Part shown: in pieces, positions 4,433 to 27,377 of the stretch | Layout of the letters: the number at the start of each line of letters is the position of its first letter | Position numbering within the stretch: the stretch's first letter is position 1 | Origin: Nocardioides jensenii JCM 1364 = NBRC 14755 | GTDB taxonomy: Bacteria; Actinomycetota; Actinomycetes; Propionibacteriales; Nocardioidaceae | Assembly: GCF_001552535.1 (NCBI RefSeq) | Contig: NZ_BCRJ01000004.1 | Coordinates: forward strand, 124,001 to 188,000 | Reading direction: 5' to 3' | DNA: 64,000 nucleotides | The notes under the pieces: model-generated | The model's database searches: none | Told to the model about the DNA's origin: nothing | What the model saw: the letters and a program-made list of their open reading frames with translations, nothing else | Position numbers and translations under genes: made by a program

Positions 4433-5185
4433 TCAGCCCGAGGGCACCGACCATTCCACGGTGGTGCCGTCGTCCGATCGGGACGTGATCGCACAGTGGC
4501 CGCCGAGCCGTTCGGCCCGCTGCTTCATGTTCAGGAGACCGCTCTCGGTCACGCCCTCGGGCAGACCACGACCGTCGTCGCGCACCCGGAGCAGGATCTC
4601 GTCACCGGCAGCGACACGTACGTCGACAGTGTCCGCCTCGGCGTGCCTGGCGGCGTTCGACAGCGCCTCCCCCAGAACGGCCAGGAGATCCGGGACGACC
4701 GCGGGCCGGATCCTGGTGCGCACGGGCCCCTCGAACCGCAGACTCGGGCGGAAGCCGAGAGTCTCGGCGGCGCGGTCGACGATGCGCTGGACCTCTACCT
4801 GAACGTCTGTTGAGTCATCCATCGAGCCGAGGGCGAAGATCGTGCGCCGGATGTCCTTGATGGTCGCGTCGAGGTCATCGACGGCCGTGGCTAGGCGGGT
4901 GGCGATCTGCGGATTGTCGGCCAGGCGGCTCAGGCTCTGCAGTCCCAGTCCCACGGCGAAAAGCCGCTGGATGACCAGGTCGTGCAGGTCACGTGCGATC
5001 CGGTCGCGGTCCTCGAAAAGGGTCAGACGGTGCTGGTCCTCACGGACCCGGGTGATCTCCATGGCGAGGGCGGCCTGCTCGGCGAAGCTGGCCGGCAGCG
5101 CGGTGTCGAGCTCGTGGAACTGCTGCGCGTGGGCTGGCTCCCAGCCCAACGCCAACGCACCAGTGATACCGCGTGACGTGCTCAT
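4433..5185 (-). CDS. DevS/DosS-like histidine kinase, C-terminal part
   Basis: This frame encodes the end of a GAF-like domain (ITGALALGWEPAH, then a helix AEQAALAMEI), a HisKA_3 dimerisation helix with phospho-accepting histidine (DRDRIARDLHDLVIQRLF) and a HATPase domain (GEALSNAARHA, then VRDDGRGLPEG). The arrangement matches the back half of DosS/DosT-type kinases. The ATG at 5185 overlaps the stop of the preceding fragment as ATGA; an in-frame TTG at 5209 is the alternative. The response regulator gene lies on the same strand with its end about 60 bases upstream of the N-terminal fragment. Without the sensory GAF domain, haem-based oxygen or NO sensing is unlikely. It may be the live half of a split kinase or part of a broken gene. 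Confidence 0.65.
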   Translation of the reverse strand: MSTSRGITGALALGWEPAHAQQFHELDTALPASFAEQAALAMEITRVREDQHRLTLFEDRDRIARDLHDLVIQRLFAVGLGLQSLSRLADNPQIATRLATAVDDLDATIKDIRRTIFALGSMDDSTDVQVEVQRIVDRAAETLGFRPSLRFEGPVRTRIRPAVVPDLLAVLGEALSNAARHAEADTVDVRVAAGDEILLRVRDDGRGLPEGVTESGLLNMKQRAERLGGHCAITSRSDDGTTVEWSVPSG

Positions 5186-5436
5186 CGGAACGACCACCAC
5201 CGGGCCCAACCGCGGCCAGCCGACTCGACGATCCGGCTGAGCAGCGTGTCCAGGTCGAGATCGGTGCCCATCGTGACCACCGCATCAAGGAGGAGCTTCC
5301 ACCGCGACTGCTCGTCGAGAACGCTGTGCGTGCGGTCGGCCACCTCGCGCAGCAGATCGTCGAAGCTGGTCTCCGCCAAGGACGACGAGCCTGATCGTTC
5401 GTCCGGTGACGGCACGTCTTTCGCCTCGTTGTCCAT
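5182..5436 (-). pseudogene. N-terminal fragment of the DevS/DosS-like kinase
   Basis: Starting from an ATG at 5436 behind a GGGAG site, about 84 residues read like the opening of a DosS-type kinase: DLLREVADRTHSVLDEQ, then LDLDTLLSRIVESA, where the first GAF domain should begin. After about 12 unrelated residues the frame stops at 5182, and kinase-like sequence resumes in another frame. Compared with full-length DosS proteins (about 550-580 residues), most of both GAF domains is missing, so an internal deletion with frameshift is the simplest reading. The stop overlaps the ATG of the kinase part (ATGA), so coupled translation of two pieces is possible. A sequencing error alone would not restore the missing domains. 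Confidence 0.6.
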
Positions 5437-5497: not shown

Positions 5498-6163
5498 TCA
5501 GTCCTTCAAGTGCTTGGTGGCGAAGATCGCCGCCTGGGTGCGACTCTGCAAGGACAGCTTCGCGAGCAACGACGACACATAGTTCTTGACCGTCTTCTCG
5601 GCCAGGAACATGGCGCCAGCGATCTGCCGGTTGGTCATGCCCTCACCGATCAACTCGAGGATTCGCTGCTCCTGCTGGGTCAACTGGTCCAGGGACGGAT
5701 CCTTCTTGGGGCCGCTGCGCAGCCTTTCGAGCACCTGGGCGGTCACACCGGGGTCGAGCATCGACTGGCCGGCCGCCACCCGACGCACCGTGTTGATGAG
5801 GTCGTTGCCGTGCACCTGCTTGAGGACATAGCCGGCGGCTCCGGCCATGATCGCCGAGAACAACGCGTCGTCGTCGTCGTACGACGTCAGGATCAGCGCA
5901 GCAATGCTTGCGTCCCGCGACCGGATCTCGCGACACACGTCGATGCCGGAACCGTCCGGCAGCCGGCCGTCGAGGATGGCCACGTCGGGACGCAGTGCGG
6001 GAATCCGCCGCGAGGCCTCCTGGGCCAGGCCGGACTCGCCGACGACGACGATGTCGCCCTCGGCCTCCAGCAGCTCCCTGATCCCCCGGCGGACGATCTC
6101 GTGGTCGTCGAGCAGGTAGACCTTGATCGGTCCGGGCGTCTGGGCAGCGCTGTCTTCACTCAC
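5498..6163 (-). CDS. devR: DosR/DevR-like response regulator (NarL/FixJ family)
   Basis: Likely the transcriptional activator of the surrounding dormancy island. Its 221 residues hold a receiver domain with the acidic pair at 19-20, phospho-acceptor D65 in AILDGRLPDG and K115 in YVLKQ, then a LuxR-type helix-turn-helix at about 160-215. The recognition segment FLAEKTVKNYVSSLLAKL followed by RTQAA is nearly that of mycobacterial DosR, in which the equivalent lysine and asparagine contact the box. It starts at GTG 6163 and is divergent from the CBS gene, with a perfect GGGAC/GTCCC box between them, implying autoregulation. It is probably transcribed with the split kinase gene downstream. The name follows sequence resemblance; function is inferred. 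Confidence 0.85.
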   Translation of the reverse strand: MSEDSAAQTPGPIKVYLLDDHEIVRRGIRELLEAEGDIVVVGESGLAQEASRRIPALRPDVAILDGRLPDGSGIDVCREIRSRDASIAALILTSYDDDDALFSAIMAGAAGYVLKQVHGNDLINTVRRVAAGQSMLDPGVTAQVLERLRSGPKKDPSLDQLTQQEQRILELIGEGMTNRQIAGAMFLAEKTVKNYVSSLLAKLSLQSRTQAAIFATKHLKD

Positions 6164-6222: not shown

Positions 6223-6237
6223 GGGACCTTCGTCCCT
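6223..6237 (+). promoter_or_regulatory. DosR-like box between devR and the CBS gene
   Basis: GGGACCTTCGTCCCT is the best palindrome of the series: GGGAC and GTCCC are exact inverted arms around CTTC. It lies 60 bases before the response regulator start on one side and 91 bases before the CBS gene on the other, so it could serve both divergent promoters. Confidence 0.65.
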
Positions 6238-6327: not shown

Positions 6328-6918
6328 ATGTTCGTGAAGGACGTGATGACCGAGAACCCGGTCACGGTGGAGGCGGGAGCATCGTTCAAGACGGGCCTGA
6401 GGCTGCTTGCTCGCTACGGCGTGACGTCGCTCCCTGTGGTCGCCACGGACGGCCGGATCTGCGGCGTCGTCAGCGAGTCGGACCTGATCCGCGAGTCGAT
6501 CCGACCCGATCCGCGGATGGACGTGTGGCTGACCGAGCGCGAGACCATCGCGCCACCGCACACGGTCGACGAGGTGCTCACCGCGCACCCGATTGTCGTG
6601 CATCCGGAGGACGATCTAGCCGTCGCCGTGGAGCTCATGACGTCGACGAGGGTGAAGAGCCTGCCGGTGGTGGACCACCATGATCGGCCGATCGGCATGG
6701 TGAGTCGAAGTGACGTCGTCCGGTCACTCGCCCGCGCCGACACCGACATCGAGGGCCAGGTCGACGATCTGCTCCGCACCCTCGGCGGACCCGACTGGCT
6801 GGTCGAGGTGAATGACGGCATCGTCGAGATCAGCGGCCCGGCCAGCCCCGGCGAGCTGCATCTGGCCCGGGCGGTGGCTGGCATGGTGCCGGGAGTGATC
6901 GACGTACGCATCGTCTGA
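6328..6918 (+). CDS. Tandem CBS-domain protein with BON-like C-terminus
   Basis: Two CBS motifs cover residues 1-60 (opening VKDVMTENPVTV, then ITSLPVV-type core) and 75-135 (MTSTRVKSLPVVD, MVSRSDVVRSLA). Such pairs bind adenine nucleotides and often act as energy sensors. The last 55 residues (WLVEVNDGIVEISGPA, then VPGVIDVRIV) resemble a shortened BON domain. The ATG at 6328 follows a GAGGAG site. It is divergent from the DosR-like regulator with a box between them. Comparable CBS proteins belong to the mycobacterial DosR regulon. Ligand and partner cannot be deduced. Confidence 0.85.
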   Translation: MFVKDVMTENPVTVEAGASFKTGLRLLARYGVTSLPVVATDGRICGVVSESDLIRESIRPDPRMDVWLTERETIAPPHTVDEVLTAHPIVVHPEDDLAVAVELMTSTRVKSLPVVDHHDRPIGMVSRSDVVRSLARADTDIEGQVDDLLRTLGGPDWLVEVNDGIVEISGPASPGELHLARAVAGMVPGVIDVRIV

Positions 6919-10475: not shown

Positions 10476-10499
10476 GCGACCACGAGTTGGAGGAGCGCC

Positions 10500-11163
<664 letters not shown>

Positions 11164-11203
11164 CGGTCTGCCTCCTGCGTGGATGGTGTGATCGGAGACC
11201 AGG

Positions 11204-11253
11204 ATACCCCCCGGGGTGTTTATCTTTCAAGGATGCATACCCCCTAGGGTAGG
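11204..11253 (-). promoter_or_regulatory. Twin CsoR-type operators
   Basis: Two G/C-tract palindromes of the CsoR class precede the DUF302-csoR pair: ATACCCCCCGGGGTGT at 11204-11219 and ATACCCCCTAGGGTA at 11237-11251, centred about 32 bases apart. They lie 41-90 bases upstream of the DUF302 start, where a promoter would be, fitting negative autoregulation. Confidence 0.7.
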
Positions 11254-11254
11254 C

Positions 11255-11374
11255 ATGACTCCTTCCCGGCCGTCGGATCCCCGTGGCCGCGACGCGTTCG
11301 CCGAGATGCTGCGAGGGTCGCTCGCGCAGGAGGCGCTTCACCGGGTCGCGTGCCCCGTGGTCGTCGTCAGGTGA
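11255..11374 (+). pseudogene. Universal stress protein C-terminal remnant
   Basis: A 39-codon open frame whose second half, MLRGSLAQEALHRVACPVVV, is the conserved end of a universal stress protein (family form: GLLLGSVSQAVLHHAPCPVVVV). The first half is unrelated, the nucleotide-binding N-terminus is absent, and the left side abuts the CsoR operators. I read it as the tail of a deleted universal stress gene rather than a functional peptide. Confidence 0.6.
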
Positions 11375-11375
11375 C

Positions 11376-11405
11376 TGGCCCCGCACGACCTGGCCCCGCA
11401 CGACC
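11376..11405. repeat. Two tandem copies of a 15-bp unit
   Basis: TGGCCCCGCACGACC occurs twice without a break, directly after the universal stress remnant. It lies in a 186-base stretch without a gene before ppdK. Replication slippage is a sufficient explanation; no function is evident. Confidence 0.7.
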
Positions 11406-11509
11406 TGAACCGTCAATGGCTGGAAGGCTTGGTCTCGAGCTCCGGCTCTCGAGGCGGCAGCTCGAGCGGTTGGCGAACCCAACGGCCAAAGAGGACTTTG
11501 CCTGCACTC

Positions 11510-11524
11510 GTGACCTTCGACCCC
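11510..11524 (+). promoter_or_regulatory. DosR-like box upstream of ppdK
   Basis: GTGACCTTCGACCCC matches the island's RGGACCTTNGNCCCY element except at the second position. It ends 35 bases before the ppdK start. A partial copy, GGACTTTGCC, lies at 11493-11502. Confidence 0.5.
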
Positions 11525-11559
11525 TGTCACCGGCTGCACCAGGTCGCCATGATCGATCC

Positions 11560-14220
11560 ATGAGCCCCTACGTGTTCGACTTCGCCGACGGCAGCATGGA
11601 TCAGAAGGACCTCCTGGGCAGCAAGGGCGCCAACCTCGCCGAGATGACCAACCTGGGGCTTCCCGTGCCGCCCGGGTTCACCATCACCACCGAGGCATGC
11701 CGCGCCTACTTGCAGGAGGGCGGAGAGCCCGACGCACTCGCGGCCCAGGTGAGCGACCATCTGGCCACACTCGAGAATGCCATGGGCCGTCGACTCGGCG
11801 ACCCCACTGACCCATTGCTGGTCAGCGTGCGCAGCGGCGCCCGGTTCTCCATGCCCGGAATGATGGACACAGTCCTCAACGTCGGTCTCAACGACCAGTC
11901 GGTCGAGGGGCTCGCCCTACAGAGCGACGACGAACGGTTCGCGTACGACTCCTACCGTCGGCTCCTCCAGATGTTCGGGGCCACGGTGCTGGGCATCAAG
12001 GACGAGGTCTTCTCCCGCGCGCTGAATGCGGCGAAGCAGGCCCGTGGGTCCGAACTTGACCTCGACCTCGAGACTCACGATCTGCGCGCTGTCGTCTCGA
12101 CCTACAAGGACCTCATTCAGGAGCACGACGGTCACCCGTTCCCGCAGGACCCGCGCGAGCAGCTCGACCTCGCCATTCACGCGGTCTTCGGCTCCTGGAA
12201 CACCGACCGCGCGGTGCTCTACCGCCGCCAGGAGCAGATCCCCGAGGACCTCGGCACCGCGGTCAACGTGCAGGCGATGGTGTTCGGCAACCTCGGCACG
12301 GACTCCGGCTCAGGCGTCGCCTTCACCCGTGACCCGGCCACCGGCAACCGGGGTGTGTACGGCGACTACCTGCAGAACGCACAAGGCGAGGACGTGGTTG
12401 CCGGCATTCGCAACACCGTGTCGCTGGCGGACATGGCAGACCTCGACCGTGCCTCTCACGACGAGCTGCTGGCAATCCTGGAGACGCTCGAGAAGCACTA
12501 CCGCGACATGTGCGACATCGAGTTCACCGTCGAGCACGGACGGCTCTGGATGCTTCAGACCCGCATTGGCAAGCGCACCCCCGAGGCGGCGTTCCGGATT
12601 GCCGGGGACATGGTCGACGAGGGCCTGATCGATCTCGACGAGGCACTCCGCCGGGTGACCGGCGGCCAGTTGGCGCAGTTGATGTTCCCCCGGTTCGACT
12701 ACTCCGCTCCTCGCACGTTGCTGGCGAAGGGGATGAACGCCTCACCCGGCGCGGCAGTCGGCAAGGCGGTCTTCGACTGGCGAACCGCCGTGGAGTGGGT
12801 CGAGCGCGGTGAAGACGTCATCCTGGTCCGCAAGGAGACGAGCCCAGACGACCTGCACGGCATGATGGTCGCGAAAGGCATCCTGACCAGCCGAGGTGGC
12901 AAGACCTCGCACGCGGCCGTGGTGGCACGCGGGATGGGTCGCACCTGCGTGTGTGGGGCCGAGTCTCTGGACGTCGACGCGAGAAACGCGCAGTTCACGG
13001 TGCGCGGCGGCCCGACGATCCGAGAGGGCGACGTGATCTCGATCGACGGCACCACGGGGGAAGTCTTCGCCGGCGCCGTGCCGGTGACCGACTCCGCGGT
13101 CGTACGCTGGTTCGAGGGCGACGACATCGACGCCCCACTCGTGCACGCGGTGGCGCGACTGATGGAACACGCTGACACCATGCGCCGACTGCTCGTCCGG
13201 GCCAACGCCGACACCGTGGACGACGCGGCCCGCGCGCGGCGGTTCGGAGCCCAGGGCATCGGCCTGTGTCGCACCGAGCACATGTTCCTCGGCGAGCGAC
13301 GCGAACTCGTCGAGCACCTGATCGTCGCCGAAGACCAGGAGGGCCGGGACACAGCCTTGGCGGCACTGCTGCCGCTGCAGAAGGCCGACTTCGTCGAGAT
13401 CCTCGAGGCGATGGACGGCCTGCCAGTCACCATCCGGCTGATCGACCCACCTCTGCACGAGTTCCTGCCCGACCTCACCGAGCTGTCGGTGACACTCGCC
13501 CTCGCTGAGGCCAACGGACATCACAAGACGCGTCAGCGCAAACTGCTTGAGGCCGTCCGGCGACTGCACGAGCAGAACCCGATGCTCGGCCTGCGCGGCG
13601 TCCGTCTGGGCATCGTGATCCCCGGGCTCTTCACCATGCAGGCCCGGGCGATTCTCGAGGCCGCGGCCGAGCAGATCCGGGCGGGCGGCGACCCGCACCC
13701 GGAGATCATGATTCCCCTGGTCGGCTCGGTCCGCGAGCTGGACCTCGTCAAGGGTCGAATCCTCGAGGTCGCCGCGGACGTCCGCTCCGAGACAGGGGTG
13801 GAGGTTCCCTTCCTCGTCGGCACCATGATCGAGCTGCCACGTGCGGCCCTGACCGCCGACGCGATCGGCCGCTCCGCAGACTTCTTCTCCTTCGGCACGA
13901 ACGACCTCACCCAGATGACCTGGGGATTCTCGCGTGACGACGTCGAGGCGTCCTTCTTCTCCACCTACCTGGAGCAGGGAGTCTTCCGGGTGTCACCATT
14001 CGAGTCACTCGACACCGAGGGGGTCGGTGCCCTGGTGCGCATCGCCGCCGCACAGGGCCGCGCAGCCAATCCCGAACTGCACCTCGGCGTGTGCGGTGAG
14101 CACGGAGGCGACCCCGAATCGATCCACTTCTTCGACGACCTCGGTCTCGACTACGTCTCGTGCTCTCCGTTCCGGGTCCCGGTGGCACGTCTGGAGGCCG
14201 GTCGCTCGACCCTGGGCTGA
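11560..14220 (+). CDS. ppdK: Pyruvate, phosphate dikinase
   Basis: Interconverts pyruvate, ATP and phosphate with phosphoenolpyruvate, AMP and pyrophosphate. The 886 residues match the family's length. From the N-terminus there is an ATP-grasp domain (GSKGANLAEM near 20), a phosphohistidine domain with H451 in GGKTSHAAVVARG and a C-terminal PEP/pyruvate barrel with the catalytic C845 in HLGVCGEHGG. The ATG at 11560 begins the conserved YVFDFADG sequence; its ribosome site is weak, and upstream in-frame codons look non-coding. A DosR-like box just upstream suggests hypoxic induction, where the enzyme could supply PEP or, in reverse, save ATP using pyrophosphate. Confidence 0.95.
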   Translation: MSPYVFDFADGSMDQKDLLGSKGANLAEMTNLGLPVPPGFTITTEACRAYLQEGGEPDALAAQVSDHLATLENAMGRRLGDPTDPLLVSVRSGARFSMPGMMDTVLNVGLNDQSVEGLALQSDDERFAYDSYRRLLQMFGATVLGIKDEVFSRALNAAKQARGSELDLDLETHDLRAVVSTYKDLIQEHDGHPFPQDPREQLDLAIHAVFGSWNTDRAVLYRRQEQIPEDLGTAVNVQAMVFGNLGTDSGSGVAFTRDPATGNRGVYGDYLQNAQGEDVVAGIRNTVSLADMADLDRASHDELLAILETLEKHYRDMCDIEFTVEHGRLWMLQTRIGKRTPEAAFRIAGDMVDEGLIDLDEALRRVTGGQLAQLMFPRFDYSAPRTLLAKGMNASPGAAVGKAVFDWRTAVEWVERGEDVILVRKETSPDDLHGMMVAKGILTSRGGKTSHAAVVARGMGRTCVCGAESLDVDARNAQFTVRGGPTIREGDVISIDGTTGEVFAGAVPVTDSAVVRWFEGDDIDAPLVHAVARLMEHADTMRRLLVRANADTVDDAARARRFGAQGIGLCRTEHMFLGERRELVEHLIVAEDQEGRDTALAALLPLQKADFVEILEAMDGLPVTIRLIDPPLHEFLPDLTELSVTLALAEANGHHKTRQRKLLEAVRRLHEQNPMLGLRGVRLGIVIPGLFTMQARAILEAAAEQIRAGGDPHPEIMIPLVGSVRELDLVKGRILEVAADVRSETGVEVPFLVGTMIELPRAALTADAIGRSADFFSFGTNDLTQMTWGFSRDDVEASFFSTYLEQGVFRVSPFESLDTEGVGALVRIAAAQGRAANPELHLGVCGEHGGDPESIHFFDDLGLDYVSCSPFRVPVARLEAGRSTLG

Positions 14221-14600
14221 CCCGCGCCCGTGGCGGCCGCCCAGGCTTCGACGAGCCAACCCCGGACCTCGTCATCGATGTCGGTCACGTCACGGAGCTC
14301 GAGGTGGTGCATCCATGTCCCAGCTGAGGGTTTCACCACCTGTTTCAGCCGCGCCGATTGCAGTGCCCTGGGCAGCGCCACGGACAGCACAACGGGCACG
14401 TCGGAGGCGACGTACCGGCCCGGACGCCACAGCATTGCGAACGCCCGGTCTCGACGGAACCCGACTTGTGACCTGGTGACTCGCACCCTGACTCCGTCCA
14501 GGCGTAGCAGTGTGCGTCGGATCTCGTCATGGATTGCGAGAGCGACCGGGTCGTGATCGAACACCTCCTCGGGAGTCAGCGCCTCCGAACTGCCAGCCAC
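14151..14600 (-). CDS. DUF5655-like protein
   Basis: A 149-residue protein with the DUF5655 pattern: RVRVTRSQVGFRRDRAFAML, a VALPR strand, then WMHHLELRDVTDIDDEVRGW. GTG 14600 follows CGGAGG by eight bases and overlaps the end of the upstream DUF4389 gene by 25 bases, so the two are probably one operon. Its last 23 codons overlap the 3' end of ppdK on the other strand by 70 bases; the DUF5655 homology ends before the overlap. Some DUF5655 proteins have been suggested to bind DNA, but I claim no function. Confidence 0.75.
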   Translation of the reverse strand: MAGSSEALTPEEVFDHDPVALAIHDEIRRTLLRLDGVRVRVTRSQVGFRRDRAFAMLWRPGRYVASDVPVVLSVALPRALQSARLKQVVKPSAGTWMHHLELRDVTDIDDEVRGWLVEAWAAATGAGQPRVERPASRRATGTRNGEHET

Positions 14601-15988
14601 AGGCCGACACCTCCGCCACACAGGAGAACCAAGCCGGCCCAGATCAACCCGGTGGCGACGTCGTCCAGTACCGGGAGCGTCGCGCCCACCCGCACCGAGG
14701 CCCGCACAGGCGCAGATCCGTCCGCATTCATCACCACCACAGACCACGAACCCTCTCGCGGGGAGAAAGTGATCTGCTGCGTGCCGGGCCCAACCGCCGA
14801 GGCCGCCCAGATCCGGCTGTCGACCGGGGACGTTCGCGGTGCACCACCGTGGGTGAACCGGTAGTCCCGGTCGCCGTATGCGTCAATCGGGTCACCCACG
14901 GTGGACAACGCCACCCCTGCGAGGCACGCCGCCACATCGTCGTGCTCGGCGATCCCGACGAAGAGGTCTTCGTCGTCCGGCGCCCACGCCTCAATCCGAA
15001 CCCTGCCGATCAGGCGCGCCGGCAGGTCGACGACGGTTTTGTCGTTGCGTATCTGCGCTTCTCGGGAGACCAGTGCGTGTCCCCGTGTCCGGAGCTCCAC
15101 GGGCGAGTTCGTGACGTAGCCGTCGTCGGCGCGACCGACGTCGTCGACGACCTTCAGCGTGGCTCCCCCACTCAACAGGCCCAATGAAGCGATGAATGCC
15201 AAGCTCGCCACGACCACGGCAATGATGCGACCGGCCCCCCAGCGACGCCGGTCACCGGCCGACGGCACTGGATCGGGATGCTGCATGGCAGATGCGAAGC
15301 GCCCTTCCAGCGGGGTCCCACCCCGTCCGCCTCCACCACCCGCGGTCTCAACGCCCAGGTCCAACCGGAACGGGGGGTAGCGATCGGTCATCAGGCCGAC
15401 GTACGCCACTGCTCGCAGAACCCACCTGTTGAGACCGAGGACCAGATCGAAGATGTCCCTCGGGTATCGGCCCGTGAAGAGAAGTGCGACACCGGCAATC
15501 AGGACGAGGAGCGGAATCAGCCCGAGTGCCGCAGCACCGTTGTGCCCGTGGACGGCATACCCACTGCCGCCGAGGAAGAGGCTGAGCACGAGGTAGTGGG
15601 GAATCGCCAGCAACCACCACTTCACCAGCGCAAGGCCCCGAGAAAGACGCTCCGGATAGACCACCTCGAGGCGGGCCGGGTCGTCGACCCGCTCGGCCAG
15701 GCTGAACGGTGGGTAGCTGTCGGAGCCCAGCCCGCCGTAGGAGTAGTAGGCGACGCGCCACGACCAGCGAAGCACCCCCACATTGAAGTCGAAGATCGGA
15801 CGCGGATATCGCCCCGTCACCACGATGGCCACCATGGCCACGACCGTCAGTACCAGGAAGGCGAGCCACAGCAACGCCAGTACGACGTAGTGAGGGATCA
15901 CCAAGATCCACTTCACGAGCCACAGCCAGCGACTCAGTGGCTCCTGCAGGGTCGCATCCACGCGGACGGGATAGGCGAGACTGTCCAT
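14576..15988 (-). CDS. DUF4389-type multispanning membrane protein
   Basis: A 470-residue membrane protein with two repeats of a DUF4389-like unit. Each has a WLVKWIL/ALVKWWLL-IPHY segment, a following hydrophobic pair and a TGRYPR-IFDF/IFDL motif, at about 17-80 and 118-200. A third part (about 250-440) has one more helix, a soluble extracytoplasmic-looking domain and a last helix (GLIWAGLVLLCGGGVGLWLA). ATG 15988 follows GAAGGAG. It is divergent from the small membrane protein and nitroreductase genes, with a DosR-like box between them. No known substrate; the duplicated core implies internal duplication. Confidence 0.75.
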   Translation of the reverse strand: MDSLAYPVRVDATLQEPLSRWLWLVKWILVIPHYVVLALLWLAFLVLTVVAMVAIVVTGRYPRPIFDFNVGVLRWSWRVAYYSYGGLGSDSYPPFSLAERVDDPARLEVVYPERLSRGLALVKWWLLAIPHYLVLSLFLGGSGYAVHGHNGAAALGLIPLLVLIAGVALLFTGRYPRDIFDLVLGLNRWVLRAVAYVGLMTDRYPPFRLDLGVETAGGGGGRGGTPLEGRFASAMQHPDPVPSAGDRRRWGAGRIIAVVVASLAFIASLGLLSGGATLKVVDDVGRADDGYVTNSPVELRTRGHALVSREAQIRNDKTVVDLPARLIGRVRIEAWAPDDEDLFVGIAEHDDVAACLAGVALSTVGDPIDAYGDRDYRFTHGGAPRTSPVDSRIWAASAVGPGTQQITFSPREGSWSVVVMNADGSAPVRASVRVGATLPVLDDVATGLIWAGLVLLCGGGVGLWLAVRRR

Positions 15989-16103
15989 CGGTTCTCCTTC
16001 GGGAGAGCCCGTTGCACGGGCGTGCCAGGCCGGTCCTGGTCGGCATGACGCCATGCAACCCCGTTTTGCCGCACCCGGCAGGGGCCGCCGTACTCGCAGA
16101 GCC

Positions 16104-21188: not shown

Positions 21189-22142
21189 ATGCACACGACC
21201 CACGAGCCGCTCGTAGGGCACGAGGACCCGCCGTGGACCGAGCCCGACAAGGCGGTGGTCGTAGCGGTCGACGGCTCCCGACGCAACCGGGCGGCGCTCG
21301 AGTGGGCCACTGCCACGGCGGTCGGAAGCGGCCGCCCGCTCATCTTGTTGCACGTCCTCGACGAATCGGAGACTGCGACGCCCTTCCATCCCATGGACAC
21401 CGACGACGAGCTCGGAAGACGCCTGCTCTCCCGGGTGACGACAGGCATCCTCCAGGAGCACCCGGATGCCCAGTTGGGCACGGAGGTGACGATCGGCCGA
21501 GTCGCGGACGCACTGGTCGCGCGTTCCTCGGGACAGTCGACGCTCGTGGTCGGCCGACGCGGCCACGGAAGCTTTCTCCGGCAGCTCATCGGCTCCACCT
21601 CGATCAAGGTGACCAGCAGGGCCCGAGTTCCCGTGATCGTGGTTCCGCAGCACTGGTCCACAGGTCAGCACCTCCGGGAACCGGTCGTCGTCGGAGTCGA
21701 TCATCGAGACCTGCAGCACGAAGCGCTCCTCTACGCGTTCCTGGAGGCACGGCGACGGGGAGTGACGTTGATCGCGGCGCACGGTCGCGAGGTTCCGGCC
21801 CGAGACTGGGCCCACGGCTCCCCGCCCGAGCCCAGTGCCGGGGAGGCAGCCGATCATGCCTCACCAGAGGCGCTCGCTCGCGCAGTCGCGCCGCTACGCG
21901 AGCGGTTCAGCGACGTGCCCGTCGAACTCTTCCATGGCTCCGAACACCCACTGACAGTCCTGCTCGACCGGATCGGCCCCACGCAGCTCCTCGTGCTCGG
22001 CAGACATGGCAGCCGAGGCCGCACGGGCGACTTCCAGTTCGGCTCCGTCGCCCAGGCTGTTCTTCACTATGCCGAGGTGCCGGTGGCAGTCGTGCCACCG
22101 ACCGAGCGGCCGGTGAGAGAGACCCACGGCAGCCGGATGTAG
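21189..22142 (+). CDS. Tandem universal stress protein
   Basis: 317 residues with two UspA domains. Domain one has VVVAVDGSRRNRAALEWA near 22 and the nucleotide loop VVGRRGHGSFLRQLIGSTS near 118; domain two has PVVVGVDHRDLQHEALLYAF and LVLGRHGSRGRTGDFQFGS. Both loops keep GxxG-like spacing. ATG 21189 follows AAGGAA. Its last 76 bases overlap the PPOX gene on the opposite strand. A box at 21092 implies hypoxic control. Confidence 0.88.
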   Translation: MHTTHEPLVGHEDPPWTEPDKAVVVAVDGSRRNRAALEWATATAVGSGRPLILLHVLDESETATPFHPMDTDDELGRRLLSRVTTGILQEHPDAQLGTEVTIGRVADALVARSSGQSTLVVGRRGHGSFLRQLIGSTSIKVTSRARVPVIVVPQHWSTGQHLREPVVVGVDHRDLQHEALLYAFLEARRRGVTLIAAHGREVPARDWAHGSPPEPSAGEAADHASPEALARAVAPLRERFSDVPVELFHGSEHPLTVLLDRIGPTQLLVLGRHGSRGRTGDFQFGSVAQAVLHYAEVPVAVVPPTERPVRETHGSRM

Positions 22143-22489
22143 AGATGACGGCTGCCTCCGGCCCATGGCTGGAGGTCGGCAAGGCCGGCGATGGTCGACA
22201 GCGCGTCCGGGTCCGTGATCGTCTCGCCATGGCCCGTGGCGACCACGCTCCACCCGCGTCGGAGCTCGTGGTCGAGGTGGTCGACCTCAAGGGCGAGCGG
22301 CGACGACCAGCCCACTGTCCCCAACACCGAGTACGGCGCCGTACGGAACACGATGGCGTCGTCCACGACCACGTAGTTCACCGGCACGATGTGAGGGCCT
22401 GTGGGCGTGCACACCGCCACCCTGGCCACCTCCTCGTGCGAGAGCAGTTGGAGGCACTCCTGCTGGGAAAGCTCCCGCGGCATGTCCAT
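22067..22489 (-). CDS. Pyridoxamine 5'-phosphate oxidase-fold protein
   Basis: 140 residues: MPRELSQQECLQLLSHEEVA, VAVCTPTGPHIVPVNYVV, IVFRTAPYSVLG, LALEVDHLDHELRRGWSVV and IRLPWVSLTGRSVGG. It is the closest paralogue in the window of the protein at 26856, sharing the PRELxxxxC start and VAVCTPxGPxIVPVNY. Start ATG 22489 follows GAGGAGAGGAG. It converges on, and overlaps by 76 bases, the universal stress gene, and diverges from another one at 22692 across two or three DosR-like boxes. Confidence 0.82.
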   Translation of the reverse strand: MDMPRELSQQECLQLLSHEEVARVAVCTPTGPHIVPVNYVVVDDAIVFRTAPYSVLGTVGWSSPLALEVDHLDHELRRGWSVVATGHGETITDPDALSTIAGLADLQPWAGGSRHLYIRLPWVSLTGRSVGGTTATGTSA

Positions 22490-26855: not shown

Positions 26856-27296
26856 TCAGACGGTGCGACGAACCGGCGCTTCCTCCTGCGGGGTCCAGTG
26901 GACCCCGATCCGTCGACCGGTCACGGAGACGGGGTACAGCCGTATGTGGAGCAATCGGGTGCCTCCGGCCCACGGCCTCGGCTCCCACACTCGGCGGATG
27001 GCCTCCAGGGTCTCGGGGTCATCGATGGCCTCCCCCGTCCCGACCGCGACCACGCTCCACCCCCGGTGGCGTTCATAGTCGAGCTGGTCGATCTCGAAGG
27101 CCAGGGACGCCAGCGGGGCCAGCTGGCCCAGGATCGAGTCCGGGTCGGTTCTGAAGACGATGTCGCCTTCCACCACGGCGTAGTTCACCGGGACGATGCG
27201 CGGCCCGTCGGGCGTGCAGACGGCCACCCGGCCGACCACCCCCGCCGCCAACAGGTCCCGGCACTTCTCCGTGGTCAGTTCGCGGGGCACGTTCAC
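26856..27296 (-). CDS. Pyridoxamine 5'-phosphate oxidase-fold protein
   Basis: 146 residues from GTG 27296 (AGGAGGAG upstream): VPRELTTEKCRDLLAAGVVG, VAVCTPDGPRIVPVNYAV, IVFRTDPDSILGQLA, LAFEIDQLDYERHRGWSVV and IRLYPVSVTGRRIG. It is a close paralogue of the protein at 22067. It is divergent from a universal stress gene across an imperfect DosR-like box. Cofactor is uncertain. Confidence 0.82.
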   Translation of the reverse strand: MNVPRELTTEKCRDLLAAGVVGRVAVCTPDGPRIVPVNYAVVEGDIVFRTDPDSILGQLAPLASLAFEIDQLDYERHRGWSVVAVGTGEAIDDPETLEAIRRVWEPRPWAGGTRLLHIRLYPVSVTGRRIGVHWTPQEEAPVRRTV

Positions 27297-27377
27297 TGGG
27301 TGGCTCCTCCTGCAGGGGTCGGCACACCTGAGCCCGACCTGGCCTTTCCACGGTAGGAGCGTTCGTGTGTCCCGAGC

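Follow-up and report, generated by a model that had tools for sequence, protein, structure and literature searches.

Does a heme-GAF sensor kinase whose gene has been split, and whose sensors are gone, persist as a working half, or is it dead? The question is raised by a DevS-like gene in the window, by which we mean the whole stretch of 64,000 nucleotides of Nocardioides jensenii DNA that was analysed. DosS/DevS and DosT of Mycobacterium and OsdK of Streptomyces coelicolor are heme-GAF HisKA_3 kinases of DevR/OsdR. The source genome (G000) is a Nocardioides draft of 5.1 Mb in 187 contigs, with a completeness of 99.89%. An earlier note on this DNA proposed that either the kinase is dead and the regulator is driven by another kinase, or a sensor-less kinase half still works. 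The relevant features of the window are the following.

5182 to 5436, minus strand: 84-codon remnant of the N-terminus of the DevS-like kinase, comprising the lead sequence, approximately 12 residues from the start of GAF-A, and out-of-frame codons up to TGA
5223 to 5224, minus strand: deletion junction, at which 727 bp of Root140 and G003 are missing
5182 to 5185, minus strand: ATGA overlap of the remnant stop and the kinase-half ATG, the ATG being a native Met codon (Root140 kinase residue 327)
4433 to 5185, minus strand: kinase half of 250 residues, with the end of GAF-B, a linker helix, the HisKA_3 DHp domain and HATPase_c
4982 to 4984, minus strand: codon of the phosphoacceptor His of the HisKA_3 family, H68 in the kinase half, which does not vary among 26 sequences
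5498 to 6163, minus strand: DevR/OsdR-like response regulator (receiver and GerE), under strong purifying selection
6223 to 6236, plus strand: DevR-box-like site upstream of devR, with both half-sites perfect in the window, Root140 and G003

On the minus strand, the kinase gene begins 61 bp downstream of the regulator (6163-5498), in which Pfam recognizes a receiver (8.2e-22) and a GerE domain (4e-18). As described in the earlier note, the gene is split into two frames, 5436-5182 and 5185-4433, that meet as ATGA. The remnant frame starts with the ATG at 5436 and ends in the TGA at 5184-5182. The kinase-half frame is stop-free to 4433. In the list of open reading frames it starts at TTG 5209 (258 aa), and the alternative start ATG 5185-5183 (250 aa) overlaps the remnant TGA. 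In this second frame, HisKA_3 (6.7e-13) and HATPase_c (1.3e-13) both exceed the Pfam cut-off, which bears out the claim of intact DHp and HATPase domains. Pfam finds no domain in the remnant frame, and no GAF match in either frame. The reported loss of the GAF sensors is thus correct, with the refinement that about 12 residues from the start of GAF-A are left in the first frame and about 55 from the end of GAF-B in the second, 43 of which come after the ATG. The reading frame is broken relative to the orthologues, as in a pseudogene. At the same time, an ATGA overlap is followed by an open downstream frame, as in a termination-reinitiation pair.

The origin of the split is clear from comparison with relatives. 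Nocardioides sp. Root140, the nearest relative found, has a single intact kinase gene of 576 residues at the same place (locus L039; L119 of G153 represents this gene too), with GAF-A at residues 60-201, GAF-B at 233-369, HisKA_3 at 386-446 and HATPase_c at 492-574 (Pfam). The window matches residues 7-74 and 313-576 of this kinase. In the BLASTN alignment with Root140 the break is at 5224|5223, with 727 bp of Root140 unmatched, and the same 727 bp lie between the two matching blocks in the more distant relative G003, which also has an intact gene at this place. Because the same break is seen against both genomes, the window gene is a once-whole gene that carries one internal frameshifting deletion, and chance resemblance is excluded. 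The lost segment corresponds to residues 72 to about 313 of the Root140 kinase. It comprises GAF-A, apart from approximately 12 residues at its start, together with most of GAF-B, and includes the heme-histidine segment of GAF-A. The junction has microhomology of a few bases at most, and the 29-base junction sequence is unique in the window. With so little microhomology, no mechanism more specific than illegitimate recombination or slippage is proposed. Among the matches listed from a search of 215 Nocardioides genomes, the deletion is present in no genome other than G000. The same matches include no genome of the same species that could date it, and the closest has 86-87% DNA identity.

The kinase half itself is undamaged in sequence and in its predicted fold. 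It keeps all 49 columns that are invariant in 25 relatives, and all 70 that are at least 92% conserved, among them those of the phosphoacceptor His and of the N and G boxes; H68, N177, G205 and G207 are invariant in 26 sequences. A DHp domain with its His and a HATPase domain with its N and G boxes, as in a HisKA_3 (DesK/NarL-type) core, are thus present, and the core is 86-87% identical to that of Root140. The AlphaFold model of the half (mean pLDDT 80.8, pTM 0.51) predicts a single helix (29-88) that links the end of GAF-B to the DHp domain, with a further DHp helix at 92-119 and a HATPase fold. In VIA-align comparisons the model matches the DosS HATPase domain with a Z score of 17.4 (2.1 Å over 120 residues), and the kinase domains of VraS, DesK and DosS with Z scores of 16-18. 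The rmsd of these matches is around 2 Å for the HATPase domain alone, and much higher when the two domains are aligned together.

The ATGA could be taken as a sign of design or selection, but this view was rejected, since the ATG is a native codon and simulated deletions often yield ATGA. Half of the simulated frameshifting junctions in Root140 with the right end at residues 215-320 do so (315/630), because from the GAF-B region onward the +1 frame of Root140 first stops at a TGA that overlaps the Met327 codon. For right ends at 300-330 and at 60-320, the counts are 79/180 and 593/1560, respectively. The Met is native in Root140 and G003 (VPM) and is found in 3 of the 57 distinct relatives, the rest having mostly Leu or Phe. 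The 20 nucleotides upstream of ATG 5185 have a pairing energy with the 16S tail of -9.9 kcal/mol, among the best 4.8% of random 20-mers of the window, compared to -3.8 at the equivalent place in Root140 and -7.4 in G003. We therefore describe the ATGA as a usable restart and, for a single locus, make no claim of selection. Reinitiation at overlapping stop/start pairs has been demonstrated in E. coli and in an archaeon (PMC6728339).

The regulator and its putative sites are kept as well. The window was searched for DevR boxes with GGGACNNNNGTCCC, allowing at most one mismatch (GGGACN4GTCCC-like), and 6 sites were observed where 9.4 are expected by chance, so that the count alone shows nothing. 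All six align with a Root140 site that scores at least 8 of 10. Less of the island is shared with G003. There, the site upstream of devR is the only one that aligns; a 9-of-10 site is found near two of the others, and none near the remaining three. The genes around the kinase are, judged by their sequence, presumably of the USP type. With its DevR-box-like sites and USP-type genes, the region resembles the OsdR and DevR neighbourhoods (PMC5069765).

Other parts of the island vary between relatives. A gene for a protein with two CBS domains next to devR (6328-6918, plus strand) is also present in G032, and is absent at this place from Root140 and G003, in which the flanking matches lie only 4-5 bp apart. 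Root140 has nothing at the corresponding position that matches 10477-16069 (approximately 5.6 kb), a stretch that includes a gene resembling pyruvate phosphate dikinase (11350-14220). Near the devR of G032 there is a segment 76% identical to this stretch. The segments 22107-22402 and 26866-27308 cross-match a single G003 region, and partly Root140, and are probably diverged USP-type duplicates within the island.

The best reading, to which we give an even chance, is that the locus encodes a gas-blind, probably constitutive DevR kinase half. Ribosomes that end the 84-codon remnant would restart at the overlapping ATG and produce a soluble kinase of 250 residues. The kinase half would autophosphorylate and feed its DevR partner without control by O2, NO or CO, like the isolated DosS kinase domain, and the nearby DevR-box genes would be driven constitutively, or by the amount of kinase made. 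Published work offers precedents (PMC4082495): DosS201, which is devoid of both GAF domains, is reported to autophosphorylate and to phosphorylate DosR, and a construct of M. smegmatis DosS with GAF-B and kinase is active under all gas conditions. Loss of heme is not always equivalent to an "on" state, since a heme-less point mutant of full-length M. smegmatis DosS has no autokinase activity (PMC4082495). By analogy with the published truncations, a free DHp-HATPase half would most likely phosphorylate DevR regardless of oxygen.

The strongest alternative, a substantial possibility if below an even chance, is a very young pseudogene: a recent deletion would have destroyed the kinase, its fragments would not yet have decayed, and the DevR regulon would be silent, basal or fed by small phosphodonors. 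A frameshifting deletion is a classical sign of a dead gene, observed null deletions tend to be young, and the confinement of this one to G000 among the matches listed agrees with such an age. The codon models limit how much room there is for this alternative. In a 15-taxon model, the kinase half has w = 0.053 on the G000 branch and 0.045 elsewhere, and both w = 1 (2dlnL 21.6) and w = 0.5 (2dlnL 17.9) are rejected for this branch. When the branch is split into a selected and a neutral part, the best neutral fraction is 0; 5% costs 1.68 lnL and 10% costs 3.65. A neutral stretch thus fills at most about 6% of the G000 branch, and at least about 94% of it was under purifying selection. These tests replaced a three-taxon branch test with too little power: there, fixing w = 1 on the G000 branch cost the kinase half only 0.73 lnL relative to a free w and was not rejected, and the 45-codon GAF-B tail tended towards a high w, an improvement of 0.93 lnL over one ratio. 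The neutral-fraction test is itself blunt, as the intact Root140 gene, on a shorter branch, tolerates up to about 30% neutral evolution as a control, and for this reason only upper limits are quoted. For devR the neutral fraction is below about 2% (26 taxa), and for the N-terminal remnant (52 codons) the likelihood is flat.

The limits bound the time since selection ended; they are no proof that it continues, and the deletion itself could be younger. Synonymous divergence between G000 and Root140 is 0.41 (0.414), of which about 61% falls on the G000 branch. For a neutral fragment, this gives an upper age limit of roughly 0.014 synonymous substitutions per site (0.414 x 0.61 x 0.056), a strain-level age with which a young pseudogene is compatible. 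A dead fragment nevertheless requires a deletion within roughly the final 6% of the branch, and the 250 codons of the kinase half have acquired no further frameshift or stop. Because neutrality over the whole branch is rejected and any neutral stretch is this short, either the kinase half is still functional or the deletion happened very recently, and the present data cannot separate the two. Of the original pair of options, a working half thus fits the selection data and may be right, and a dead kinase survives only in combination with a very young deletion. In the latter case, the locus would be an instance of ordinary loss.

Alternatively, DevR may be activated by another kinase, or without phosphorylation, so that the state of the fragment would be irrelevant. 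Overexpressed M. tuberculosis DevR induces its regulon without DevS/DosT or phosphorylation (PMC4973870), and the devR of the window is still under strong selection. We nevertheless regard this explanation as improbable, because the genome offers no obvious substitute. A search with the full Root140 kinase gave a DevS-like match at this locus only, the 11 further matches being kinase cores of at most 36% identity. The GAF-A query (E <= 1) returned the 27-residue remnant (7.8e-6) and a single other match at E 0.27. The second DevS-like kinase envisaged in the earlier note was therefore not found, nor was a GAF-A-like domain elsewhere in the genome. Among 20 HisKA_3 matches, 18 of the 19 others have an adjoining NarL-type regulator on the same strand, and the exception (C79:8892) is a different kinase that is apparently membrane-bound. 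The idea that another kinase drives the regulator is thus left with no obvious candidate, and cross-talk from other kinases is possible.

An assembly error, or a deletion that arose in laboratory culture, is similarly doubtful. The assembly is a draft of 187 contigs, but the junction microhomology of a few bases is far below assembler k-mers, and the missing segment is found nowhere else in the assembly; both points bear on an assembly error and not on a deletion in culture. Finally, programmed or spontaneous frameshifting that fuses the remnant and the kinase half into a protein of about 334 residues is very improbable, for although both frames stay open across the roughly 100 nt that lie upstream of 5182, visual inspection of this overlap revealed no slippery heptamer, and the ATGA restart is simpler.

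If the gas-blind kinase half does work, it would be a natural counterpart of the laboratory DosS truncations, in which one deletion has made a hypoxia switch constitutive or dose-controlled. It would make it testable, in a soil genus that is harmless, whether the GAF domains mainly restrain an intrinsically active kinase core, and the dormancy-type regulon of this lineage may be on in air. Among the papers listed by a literature search for natural sensor-less relatives, none is on a natural GAF-less DevS kinase.

Judged from the sequences of relatives, sensor loss with a surviving core has precedents in Nocardioides. Alignment of 67 loci to the Root140 kinase gave 57 distinct relatives. The proximal-His position, at which the DosS and DosT GAF-A structures align, is kept in 54 of them, and three are without much of GAF-A. 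G030 (L022/L151) has 478 open codons without GAF-A, with a devR-like gene (64.5% identical) 0.8 kb downstream. In G183 (L120/L149) the open frame without GAF-A has 439 codons, and the 20 kb examined there contain no devR match. Both have mostly lost GAF-A and have an open kinase core, like the window gene, but unlike it they keep GAF-B in frame with that core. For the G183 kinase core the limit on the neutral fraction is about 4%, so that this core is under selection too; the test gives no informative limit for G030, nor for the intact sister L021. G187 (L135/L181) is in two frames, in a genome that is only 70% complete, so that a sequencing error is possible. In 11/57 relatives, among them the Pimelobacter-like L017, L048, L053 and L057, GAF-B is in frame and retains under half of its core (Root140 245-320). 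In a score-ranked search of the genus, 68 of the 73 matches of at least 417 bits, among the matches listed, span from residue 49 or earlier to residue 535 or later. The exceptions, again among the matches listed, are G000, G183, G187, G030 and G092; relatives whose match is split into pieces rank lower and are outside the 73 counted.

Some further DevS genes deserve mention. In G183 (L149:7785-10576) the GAF-A-less gene lies divergently beside bd-oxidase-like genes, which look to us like cydA and cydB. DevS paralogues in L176-L179 (G036, G167, G067 and G219) have a GAF-A without the heme-histidine segment of Root140, are apparently heme-less, and adjoin devR-like genes that are 70-76% identical to the window DevR. 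In L180:1532-4291 (G092), DevS goes out of frame inside the DHp domain, and in L062:7125-8282 (a Pimelobacter MAG) it has an in-frame stop in this domain; each may be a real mutation or a sequencing error.

Tentatively, and with some doubt, these relatives may hint that loss of the heme sensor has occurred repeatedly among the DevS kinases of Nocardioides, with retention of the core and of a DevR-type regulator, and that here the frameshifting deletion was immediately rescued by a latent ATGA restart. If so, natural gas-blind DevR drives, probably active at all times, would recur as an adaptation in which a hypoxia switch becomes a constitutive programme.

The window kinase shares with DosS and DosT the kinase core (1e-21 to 9e-17 to their HATPase entries), and the intact Root140 orthologue matches the DosS and DosT GAF-A structures over that domain. 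As in DevS, DosS and DosT, an orthologous core is found beside a DevR-like regulator, with DevR-box-like sites and USP-type genes around it, as for DosS, DosT and OsdK. Unlike these kinases, the window gene is split, and has lost GAF-A, with its proximal-His segment, and most of GAF-B. The N-terminal tandem GAFs and the proximal heme His (His149 of DosS) that define DevS, DosS and DosT are therefore absent. DesKC of Bacillus subtilis is comparable in its predicted DHp and HATPase fold (Z 16-18), but it is a laboratory core construct of another sensor kinase, and differs in signal and partner. The closest working models are DosS201 and the M. smegmatis construct of GAF-B and kinase, as kinases without a heme sensor (PMC4082495). 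In contrast to these laboratory truncations, the one in N. jensenii is genomic, and the kinase half would be expressed, if at all, by a restart behind the remnant.
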